Made by a program: the position numbers and the translations under genes
Part shown: positions 52,772-55,080 of the stretch, in pieces
How the letters are laid out: every line of letters starts with the position of its first letter
Numbering within the stretch: position 1 is the first letter of the stretch
Notes under the pieces: generated by a model
The model's database searches: none
The model's input: only the letters and a program-made list of their open reading frames with translations
Told to the model about the DNA's origin: nothing
Assembly: GCA_023150875.1 (NCBI GenBank)
Contig: JAKLKC010000011.1
Coordinates: 62,001 to 126,000 of the forward strand
Length of the DNA stretch: 64,000 nucleotides
From: Myxococcota bacterium
GTDB taxonomy: Bacteria > Myxococcota_A > UBA796 > UBA9615 > JAKLKC01
Reading direction: 5' to 3'

Positions 52772-52950
52772 CGGGGACCGCGGCACCCCGGCGGGAGGAC
52801 CCGCACCCCGGGGGACACCCCCGGGGAGTCGGGATCCGGACCTCCCTTGACCTCGCCCGCTCCCCGGCGGTAGCCTCTCCGCCCATGGGACGCGGGAGGG
52901 CGCCCCTCGCCGGTGGGTGGGATCGGCGCGTCCTCCCGAAGGGAGCGCCG

Positions 52951-55080
52951 ATGTGGGTGGATGACCTGAAGGACTTGAAGCGGGCGGCAGTTGCCTTCGA
53001 CCGGGAGGAAGCCGAGGCCTTGTGCTCGGCGATGGTGGGGAGGTTGGACGCCGGGGCATCGCCTCCCCCCGAGGACGTCTCCAAGGAGGTCTTGAAGGTC
53101 CTGCGGGGCAAGAGATGGTTCGGCCCGATGGCGCGGGCCGCGGAGGCCCTGGTGGGGGCTGGGCAGGGGAGCGCCGGGGTGCGCCGTCAGCTCGGCCAGG
53201 CCCTCATCGAGGGGAGGCGATTCGACGAGGCGCTGGATGTGCTGGAGGCCCTGGCGCGGGACACTGCCGGGACGGATCCCAGCGAGAACGCCGAGGCCCG
53301 GGGCCTGATCGGCAGGCTGTTCAAGCAACGGTACGTAGACGGGGGCAACGGCGACGCCGGCGAGCGCGCCGTGCAGCTCCGGCGCGCCATCGAGGCGTAC
53401 CACGGGGTCTGGGTCCAGAACCCCGCCCTCCACAACTACCAGGGCATCAACGCCGCGGCCTGCGCCCGGCGCGCCGAGAGGGACGGGGTCGCCGTCCCCG
53501 ACGGGGTGGACGCGGCGGTCATCGCCGTCCGGGTCCTGGGCAACCTCTCGGCGGTGCCCAAGGACAACCTCGCCGCCTGGGGCCTGGCGACGGGCGCCGA
53601 AGCCTGCCTCGTCCTCGATCACGGCCTGGACGCGGTGCTGGAGTGGCTGAAGCCCTACGTCGCCCGCGCCGACGCCGACGCCTTCGAGTTCGGCTCCACC
53701 CTGCGACAGCTCCGGGAGGTGTGGCGGATCGACGACGACGATCCCCTGGGGCCGGCGGTGGCCGTGCTGCGGGTGGCCCTCACCCAGCGGGAGGGGTTCC
53801 GCGCCGACCTCGAGATCGGCGACCTGCACGCCGCCGCCACCGTCGTGGACCGGCGCCGCGACGAGTTGGAGAAGGTGTTCGGCGAGGCGGGCCCGGTGGC
53901 CCTGAGATGGTACCGGGAGGGCCTGGAGAGGGCCCGGGGGGTGGGGAGGATCGAGGACCCGAGGGGCCGGGGGATCGGCACCGGCTTCCTGGTGCGGGGC
54001 GGGGACCTGTTCCCCGGCTCCTGGGGCCTGGGCGACGAGGAGGTGCTGGTCACCAACGCCCACGTGCTGAGCGCCACGGAGCCCGGAGCCCTGCGCCCGG
54101 GGGAGGCGGTGGTGCGCTTCGAGGCCCTGGAGGAGCAGCCCATCGAGGTGCCGGTGGGGGAGCTGCTGTGGGAGTCCCGGGTGGGGGAGCTGGACGTGAG
54201 CATCGCCCGCCTGGGGAGGGCCGTCACCGCCCACGCGCCCTACCCCCTGGCGGCCGAGGACGAGCCCGCGTTCACGCCCGGGGGGCGGCGCCGCCTCTAC
54301 GTGATCGGCCACCCCCTGGGGGGCGACCTGTCCCTGTCGCTGGAGGACAACTTCCAGGTGGGCTGGGGGTTCCCCTTTCTCCACTACCGCACCCCCACCG
54401 AGCCGGGCAGCTCGGGGAGCCCGGTCTTCGACGACCGCTGGAGCCTGGTGGCGGTCCACCACAAGGGGAGCGAGCGGCTGCCCCGCCTGGACGGAGGGCC
54501 GGGCACCTATCGGGCGAACGAGGGGACCTGGATCCACGCGGTCCGGCGCGCGCTGGCCACGGCCCCGGCACGGACCGTGTCTCCGCTGTCCGGGGCCCCG
54601 CCGATCGCTGCCCGCCAGGGGTTCTTCGTCGCCTATAGCCACCGCGACAAGAAGTGGCTGGAGGACCTCGAGGTCACGATGAGGCCCGTCCTCCGGGGGG
54701 GACAGGCCGCCGATCTCTGGTCCGACAAGCGGATCCCCCCCGGGGCACGCTGGGAGCGGGAGATCGAGAAGGCCATCGGAGCCGCCAGGATCGCGGTGCT
54801 GCTGGTGTCCCGGCAGTTCCTCGCCTCGGACTTCGCGCAGCAGCAGGAGGTCCCGAGGATCCTGGAGGCCAACCGGCGCCGGGGCATGAAGGTGCTGTGG
54901 ATCCCCGTGAGCCACACGTCGCCCGAGTTCCGCAAGGAGCTGGAAGCCCTCCAGGCCCTCCACGACCCGGACACTCCCCTGGACTCCCTGCCGAAGCCGA
55001 AGCGGGAGCAGGCGTGGGGCAGGATCGGCGAGGAGCTCCTCAAGGCGGTGGACCGCGAGCCCGTGACCTCCCCCGCGTGA
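52951..55080 (+). CDS. TRAFs-binding-like TPR / trypsin-like protease / TIR fusion
   Basis: This 709-residue protein has three parts. The N-terminal 350 residues are helical and carry the pattern of TRAFs-binding (DUF4071-like) TPR domains: QALIEGRRFDEALDVLEALA, AEARGLIGRLFKQRYVD, AIEAYHGVWVQNPALHNYQG. The middle is a trypsin/V8-like serine protease: His371 in LVTNAHVLSAT, Asp415 in GELDVSIARLG and Ser488 in PGSSGSPVFDD. The C-terminus (about residues 555-709) is a TIR domain (FFVAYSHRDKKWLEDL; LWSDKRIPPGARWEREIEKA; VLLVSRQFLASDFAQQQEVP), with Glu633 at the position of the NADase catalytic Glu. ATG 52951 has GGGAG five bases upstream; an in-frame ATG at 52885 adds non-conserved-looking sequence. 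No signal peptide is seen. It stands alone between metabolic genes. Confidence 0.85.
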   Translation: MWVDDLKDLKRAAVAFDREEAEALCSAMVGRLDAGASPPPEDVSKEVLKVLRGKRWFGPMARAAEALVGAGQGSAGVRRQLGQALIEGRRFDEALDVLEALARDTAGTDPSENAEARGLIGRLFKQRYVDGGNGDAGERAVQLRRAIEAYHGVWVQNPALHNYQGINAAACARRAERDGVAVPDGVDAAVIAVRVLGNLSAVPKDNLAAWGLATGAEACLVLDHGLDAVLEWLKPYVARADADAFEFGSTLRQLREVWRIDDDDPLGPAVAVLRVALTQREGFRADLEIGDLHAAATVVDRRRDELEKVFGEAGPVALRWYREGLERARGVGRIEDPRGRGIGTGFLVRGGDLFPGSWGLGDEEVLVTNAHVLSATEPGALRPGEAVVRFEALEEQPIEVPVGELLWESRVGELDVSIARLGRAVTAHAPYPLAAEDEPAFTPGGRRRLYVIGHPLGGDLSLSLEDNFQVGWGFPFLHYRTPTEPGSSGSPVFDDRWSLVAVHHKGSERLPRLDGGPGTYRANEGTWIHAVRRALATAPARTVSPLSGAPPIAARQGFFVAYSHRDKKWLEDLEVTMRPVLRGGQAADLWSDKRIPPGARWEREIEKAIGAARIAVLLVSRQFLASDFAQQQEVPRILEANRRRGMKVLWIPVSHTSPEFRKELEALQALHDPDTPLDSLPKPKREQAWGRIGEELLKAVDREPVTSPA

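Follow-up and report, generated by a model that had tools for sequence, protein, structure and literature searches.

A single gene that joins a TPR-S sensor, a trypsin-like protease and a TIR domain, and the family to which its sensor-protease half belongs

A gene from a Myxococcota bacterium encodes a 709-aa protein in which a TPR-S sensor domain, a trypsin-like serine protease and a TIR domain are joined in one chain, and which by its profile matches belongs to the TPR-S, Trypsin_2 and TIR families. The fusion appears to condense into one protein a little-studied module of immunity or cell death. In most relatives the sensor-protease half stands without the TIR domain and directly behind the gene of an alpha/beta hydrolase, and this usual partner of the family changes how the TIR domain of the fusion should be read.

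The fusion gene and its three domains

The gene is monocistronic and lies at positions 52951..55080 of the window (the stretch of 64,000 nucleotides that was analyzed; all coordinates without a locus name refer to it and to the forward strand) as an intact single open frame. There is an alternative upstream ATG at 52885 which would give a longer frame; the sequence AAGGGAG is found just 5′ of the ATG at 52951. With a GC content of 0.75/0.50/0.95 at the three codon positions the codon use is host-like, as in the adjoining genes. The original prediction of one gene with three domains is borne out by a Pfam search, in which TPR-S, Trypsin_2 and TIR_2 were found in one frame, each above its curated cut-off and with E values of about 3e-11 or better, so that chance can be excluded for these three matches. 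The models of PADLOC pick up nothing but the TIR end of the protein, and NCBIfam gives only a weak FxsC match below the cut-off.

It had also been stated that the gene sits alone, and this agrees with its surroundings. Upstream there is a divergent aminotransferase gene, and the other neighbors, among them genes for a sulfatase and a hydroxyacyl-CoA dehydrogenase, are housekeeping genes as well; inspection of the adjacent genes did not place the fusion gene within a defence island. Locally around the gene no repeats, promoters or terminators of note were found, and a homologue of the alpha/beta hydrolase was not found anywhere in the genome.

The N-terminal part (residues 1–328, 52951..53934) is all-helical and forms a TPR superhelix according to the AlphaFold2 model and the match of the family profile to ASK1. 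The pLDDT of the model is mostly above 90 for residues 1–280 and about 45 for residues 281–320; over the full length the TPR and protease parts are confident and the TIR part is poor. Within this region the TPR-S domain PF20308 spans residues 73–171 (53167..53463) with an E value of 3.7e-14 and a score of 53.6 bits (cut-off 27.6), and the residues R122, K125, Y150 and N167 are invariant in the alignment of the relatives. The region had been labeled as TRAFs-binding-like. This label stands at the superfamily level, as some relatives do match MAP3K_TRAF_bd and the sensor-protease family profile matches human ASK1/MAP3K5 chains (5ulm, E 1.1e-4) at positions 8–176, that is with its TPR part, but the fusion protein itself matches TPR-S and gave no match to the MAP3K TRAFs-binding model PF13281 at E values up to 1 in the Pfam search. 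The predicted role of the TPR-S domain would be the binding of an NAD-derived ligand.

Other proteins encountered in the survey match nearly the whole MAP3K TRAFs-binding model with E values of 1e-41 to 1e-60 (L074:5581-6972, L011:754-2175, L104:8541-9956), and judged by these matches they appear to be bacterial proteins that correspond closely to the regulatory region of ASK1. One genome of the same phylum as the window encodes two further fusions, one of TPR-S to a patatin phospholipase (L072:3265-5583) and one of an alpha/beta hydrolase to TPR-S (L073:3913-5367).

The protease domain (Trypsin_2, PF13365; residues 343–502, 53977..54456; E 4e-15, 57.2 bits) has the trypsin fold and the complete catalytic triad. 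The residues named in the original prediction, His371 (54061..54063), Asp415 (54193..54195) and Ser488 within the motif GSSGSP (54412..54414), are each invariant in 21 sequences of diverse relatives. In Foldseek the best matches of this part were V8/Esp/Spl proteases, and the protease part of the family profile matches V8/Spl/FAM111A proteases. A linker with low model confidence, which contains neither Glu nor Asp, connects the protease with the TIR domain (residues 538–557, 54562..54621).

The TIR domain (TIR_2, PF13676; E 3e-11, 44.3 bits) was detected at residues 558–659 (54622..54927), with the fold continuing to about residue 701. Since the TIR rows were misaligned when they were added to the full alignment, we folded this domain alone. 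The resulting model (pTM 0.71, pLDDT 75) found TIR domains in Foldseek, including the NADases AbTIR and SARM1, and residue 633 is within its helix 77–94, which is the alpha-C helix. Glu633 (54847..54849), previously proposed to occupy the NADase position, is the candidate catalytic residue. It is invariant in all six sequences of the TIR subfamily and in all nine after closer Bacteroidota TIR domains (up to 48% identical) had been added, and in the subfamily profile alignment it falls, with a gap of one residue, on the position of the catalytic Glu of Cat1 and of the plant TIR domain 3jrn. The subfamily has one extra residue ahead of the Glu, and no solved structure of exactly this subfamily was found. 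One single-sequence alignment favored Q632 as the catalytic residue; this assignment was rejected, the subfamily conservation and the profile alignment both favoring E633. The TIR domain of the fusion probably consumes NAD.

The sensor-protease family and its partner genes

The TPR-S-protease half forms a distinct family, with relatives of about 550 residues. They are present on 17 contigs of the species collection (Pseudomonadota, Actinomycetota and Bacteroidota) and on rhizobial plasmids; further relatives were found in two other genomes of the phylum of the window, in more genomes of the class of L045 and in one extra Bacteroidota genome. The fusion protein is 39–42% identical to the proteins of L043–L046 over about 530 residues. 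Within the class of the window the family occurs in one of 71 genomes, namely that of the fusion. We conclude that the family is real and horizontally scattered. Viral contigs, searched with the fusion protein, its TIR domain and the family and TIR alignments, contained no relatives, and phage records yielded none.

The original prediction had proposed a search for homologues with the same order of domains and an inspection of their neighbors. The neighbors of the relatives were inspected and the sensor-protease half proved to be widespread, but the exact order TPR-S/protease/TIR was seen once, in the genome of the window only, among the genomes searched with a pattern-based, non-exhaustive scan. 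With a single instance of the fusion, conservation of the fused architecture cannot be demonstrated. In the tree, the TIR-linked members of the family are neither firmly grouped nor firmly separated.

Of 29 loci, 21 (L040–L042, L044–L052, L054, L057–L059 and L103–L107, from at least two phyla) encode a conserved alpha/beta hydrolase with the lipase-type serine motif HSMG directly upstream of the sensor-protease gene, and the hydrolase gene ends within about 10 bases of the start of the sensor-protease gene or overlaps it. This widespread two-gene module, which is carried by conjugative plasmids in some cases, has the look of a candidate conflict system not described before. The earlier interpretation, correct in the residues, the isolation and the anatomy of the fusion, had missed this established TPR-protease family and its usual hydrolase partner.

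The remaining loci have other neighbors. In Telluribacter (L043) a SLOG4-TIR gene takes the position of the hydrolase just upstream, and the family hydrolase is absent from the locus. There the SLOG-TIR and TPR-S-trypsin genes adjoin a convergent pair of an ASK-like TPR-S gene and a TIR gene, a TIR-WD40 gene and an NB-ARC gene (L043:2308-12149). In a Bacteroidota locus, likewise without the family hydrolase, a trypsin-Endonuclease_NS protein is encoded directly upstream of the TPR-S-trypsin protein (L099:6323-9976). In three alphaproteobacterial loci (L053, L055 and L056), two of them from Hyphomonadaceae, the sensor-protease protein has an additional trypsin domain and a GH108 muramidase is encoded upstream; L053 and L056 also have a small RyR-domain gene downstream. 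An LCAT-type hydrolase is encoded beside it in L070, and no partner enzyme was recognised beside it in L071. Nearby there are, in addition, an LSDAT SLOG gene in L051 and, in L043 and L104, genes for full ASK-like MAP3K_TRAF_bd proteins. In two loci (L049:8532-11767 and L052:8521-11757) a gene for a multidomain lysozyme/CHAP/LysM protein, typed as such in L049, and then one for a TIR protein lie downstream of the hydrolase and protease genes; the lysozyme/CHAP/LysM proteins suggest that cell-wall attack is part of some versions of the module.

TIR genes are frequent in the vicinity of the family. In seven of 17 genomes (L043, L046, L047, L048, L049, L051 and L052, with L047 inferred from the contig coordinates) a TIR gene is located at most 10 kb from the sensor-protease gene, about 0.38 being expected from the TIR counts per genome (Poisson-binomial P ~8e-9), with the 10-kb limit having been chosen after looking at the data. 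If the close relatives L046/L047 and L049/L052 are each counted once, five independent lineages remain (P ~1e-5). Since TIR genes cluster in defence islands, this proximity is not proof of a direct coupling. A hydrolase is accompanied by TIR genes in L040, L046, L048, L049, L051 and L052; three rhizobial genomes with the hydrolase and sensor-protease pair have no TIR gene at all.

Possible mechanisms of the fusion protein

We tentatively favor, with a confidence that stays just short of even, a one-protein conflict switch acting in abortive infection or regulated death, with the TIR domain as the NAD+-cleaving main effector. The ASK1-like TPR-S scaffold would sense a trigger or a nucleotide-type ligand, and binding of the ligand would release the trypsin-like protease and cluster the C-terminal TIR domains, which would then hydrolyse or cyclise NAD+. 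The protease may serve as a gate or as a second effector, cutting its own chain or proteins of the cell, and the TIR domain would take the effector slot that a separate hydrolase gene holds in most relatives. Sensing of a ligand, the activities of protease and NADase, the order in which they act and a possible role against phages are all predicted. As the relatives adjoin TIR, SLOG, lipase, muramidase and nuclease genes and scatter horizontally, a self-contained conflict or regulated-death module, as had been proposed, is the likeliest class. The pairing of the family with effector-type enzymes (hydrolase, SLOG-TIR, nuclease, muramidase) and the fusions of TPR-S to patatin and alpha/beta hydrolase elsewhere support an effector. 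In sensor-TIR fusions with solved structures such as TIR-SAVED, Cat1 and SARM1, all of which were matched here, the TIR domain is the NADase effector. The sporadic occurrence in one of 71 genomes of the class agrees with a conflict gene that spreads horizontally. Against the switch stand the single occurrence of the fusion, its position outside a defence island, the extra residue ahead of the Glu in its TIR subfamily and the six loci in which TIR genes occur together with a hydrolase.

Possible, yet clearly less probable, is that the TIR domain makes an ADP-ribose-type signal from NAD+ which is bound by the TPR-S domain of the same or a neighboring molecule, so that the protease is switched on and degrades proteins of the cell. 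TPR-S is reportedly a predicted reader of NAD+-derived signals. The excess of nearby TIR genes argues for such a signal even if it may merely reflect shared defence islands, and so do the ligand domains in the neighborhoods (SLOG4-TIR in L043, LSDAT in L051, RyR in L053 and L056) and the second pair of a TIR and an ASK-like TPR-S gene in Telluribacter. That the TIR gene accompanies rather than replaces the hydrolase in the six loci with both fits signal production as well. Maker and sensor in one chain would, however, be unusual for a diffusible signal, and the three rhizobial genomes lack a TIR gene. The protein would be a single-chain analogue of the signaling from TIR to protease in type IV Thoeris, with a built-in feed-forward; in that system N7-cADPR made by a TIR protein activates a caspase-like protease (Rousset et al. 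2025, as described in PMC12847820). Anatomy cannot separate the effector from the signal reading, and we favor the effector.

It is rather improbable that the TIR domain is an oligomerisation scaffold with the protease as sole effector, or that the protein plays no part in immunity and is a protease for general stress or turnover. The TIR domains of animal TLRs are non-enzymatic, and the fusion gene lies among housekeeping genes. These readings are at odds with the invariant E633, with the TIR, SLOG, lipase, nuclease and muramidase genes next to the family and with its sporadic distribution. Least likely, in our estimate, is that the protease cuts the chain and thereby frees the TIR domain. 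The flexible, low-confidence linker would allow this, and bacterial immunity offers a precedent in Hachiman and AVAST variants, whose partner proteases activate nuclease proenzymes (PMC12799240). The best solved matches are glutamyl endopeptidases of the V8/Esp type, yet the linker is free of Glu and Asp; a V8-like specificity is a guess, FAM111A having been matched too.

Relation to known systems

The fusion protein has its sensor domain in common with the TPR-S conflict systems; in work by Burroughs and Aravind from 2020 TPR-S is said to be predicted as a sensor of NAD signals in prokaryotic immunity and as the domain from which the ASK TPR scaffold arose. No described system with this exact order of domains was known to the original prediction, which holds as far as tested; the work just named may list the architecture. 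The TPR region of the family is homologous by profile to the regulatory region of ASK1, which has a kinase where the fusion has a protease and a TIR domain. With TIR-SAVED, Cat1 and SARM1 the fusion shares a ligand sensor and a TIR NADase in one chain, its own activities being predicted, but it has another sensor fold and an additional protease between sensor and TIR domain. From the hydrolase module it has the TPR-S-trypsin chain without the upstream hydrolase gene.

Together with its split relatives, the fusion connects TIR enzymes with the ASK1-like TPR-S sensor and a serine protease in a single pathway. As a single gene that can be cloned and mutated it allows a direct test of whether TPR-S reads the product of the TIR domain, and also of the predicted bacterial origin and the ligand of the ASK1 scaffold. 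We regard it as doubtful that the protein is a self-amplifying NAD-signaling protease, in which its own TPR-S domain would read an ADP-ribose-type messenger made by the TIR domain and lock the serine protease on. If true, this would support a messenger-binding origin of the ASK1 TPR scaffold, and the fusion would to our knowledge be the first single polypeptide that is messenger maker, receptor and protease effector.

As in type IV Thoeris, TIR domain and protease would belong to one immune pathway, but the fusion is one chain instead of an operon and has a TPR-S sensor; the trypsin-like instead of caspase-like fold of its protease rules out membership. The ThsA proteins of type I/II Thoeris (SIR2-SLOG or TM-macro) were not among the genes adjacent to the fusion gene. 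The nuclease-protease pairs of Hachiman and AVAST likewise tie a trypsin-like protease to a toxic partner enzyme, which in our family is usually the alpha/beta hydrolase and here the fused TIR domain; membership is ruled out, there being no MBL-fold nuclease among the adjacent genes tested. The EAD/ternary and NucA-trypsin systems (Kaur et al. 2020, PMC7159879; PMC8195603) draw on the same repertoire of trypsin, TIR, TPR and NucA domains. Membership in the EAD/ternary systems is ruled out, as no EAD, STAND, MoxR-vWA or VMAP component is present in the fusion gene or adjacent to it. A genome of the order of the window encodes an EAD1-trypsin protein (L076:5691-7166), whose EAD1 match is slightly below the cut-off.
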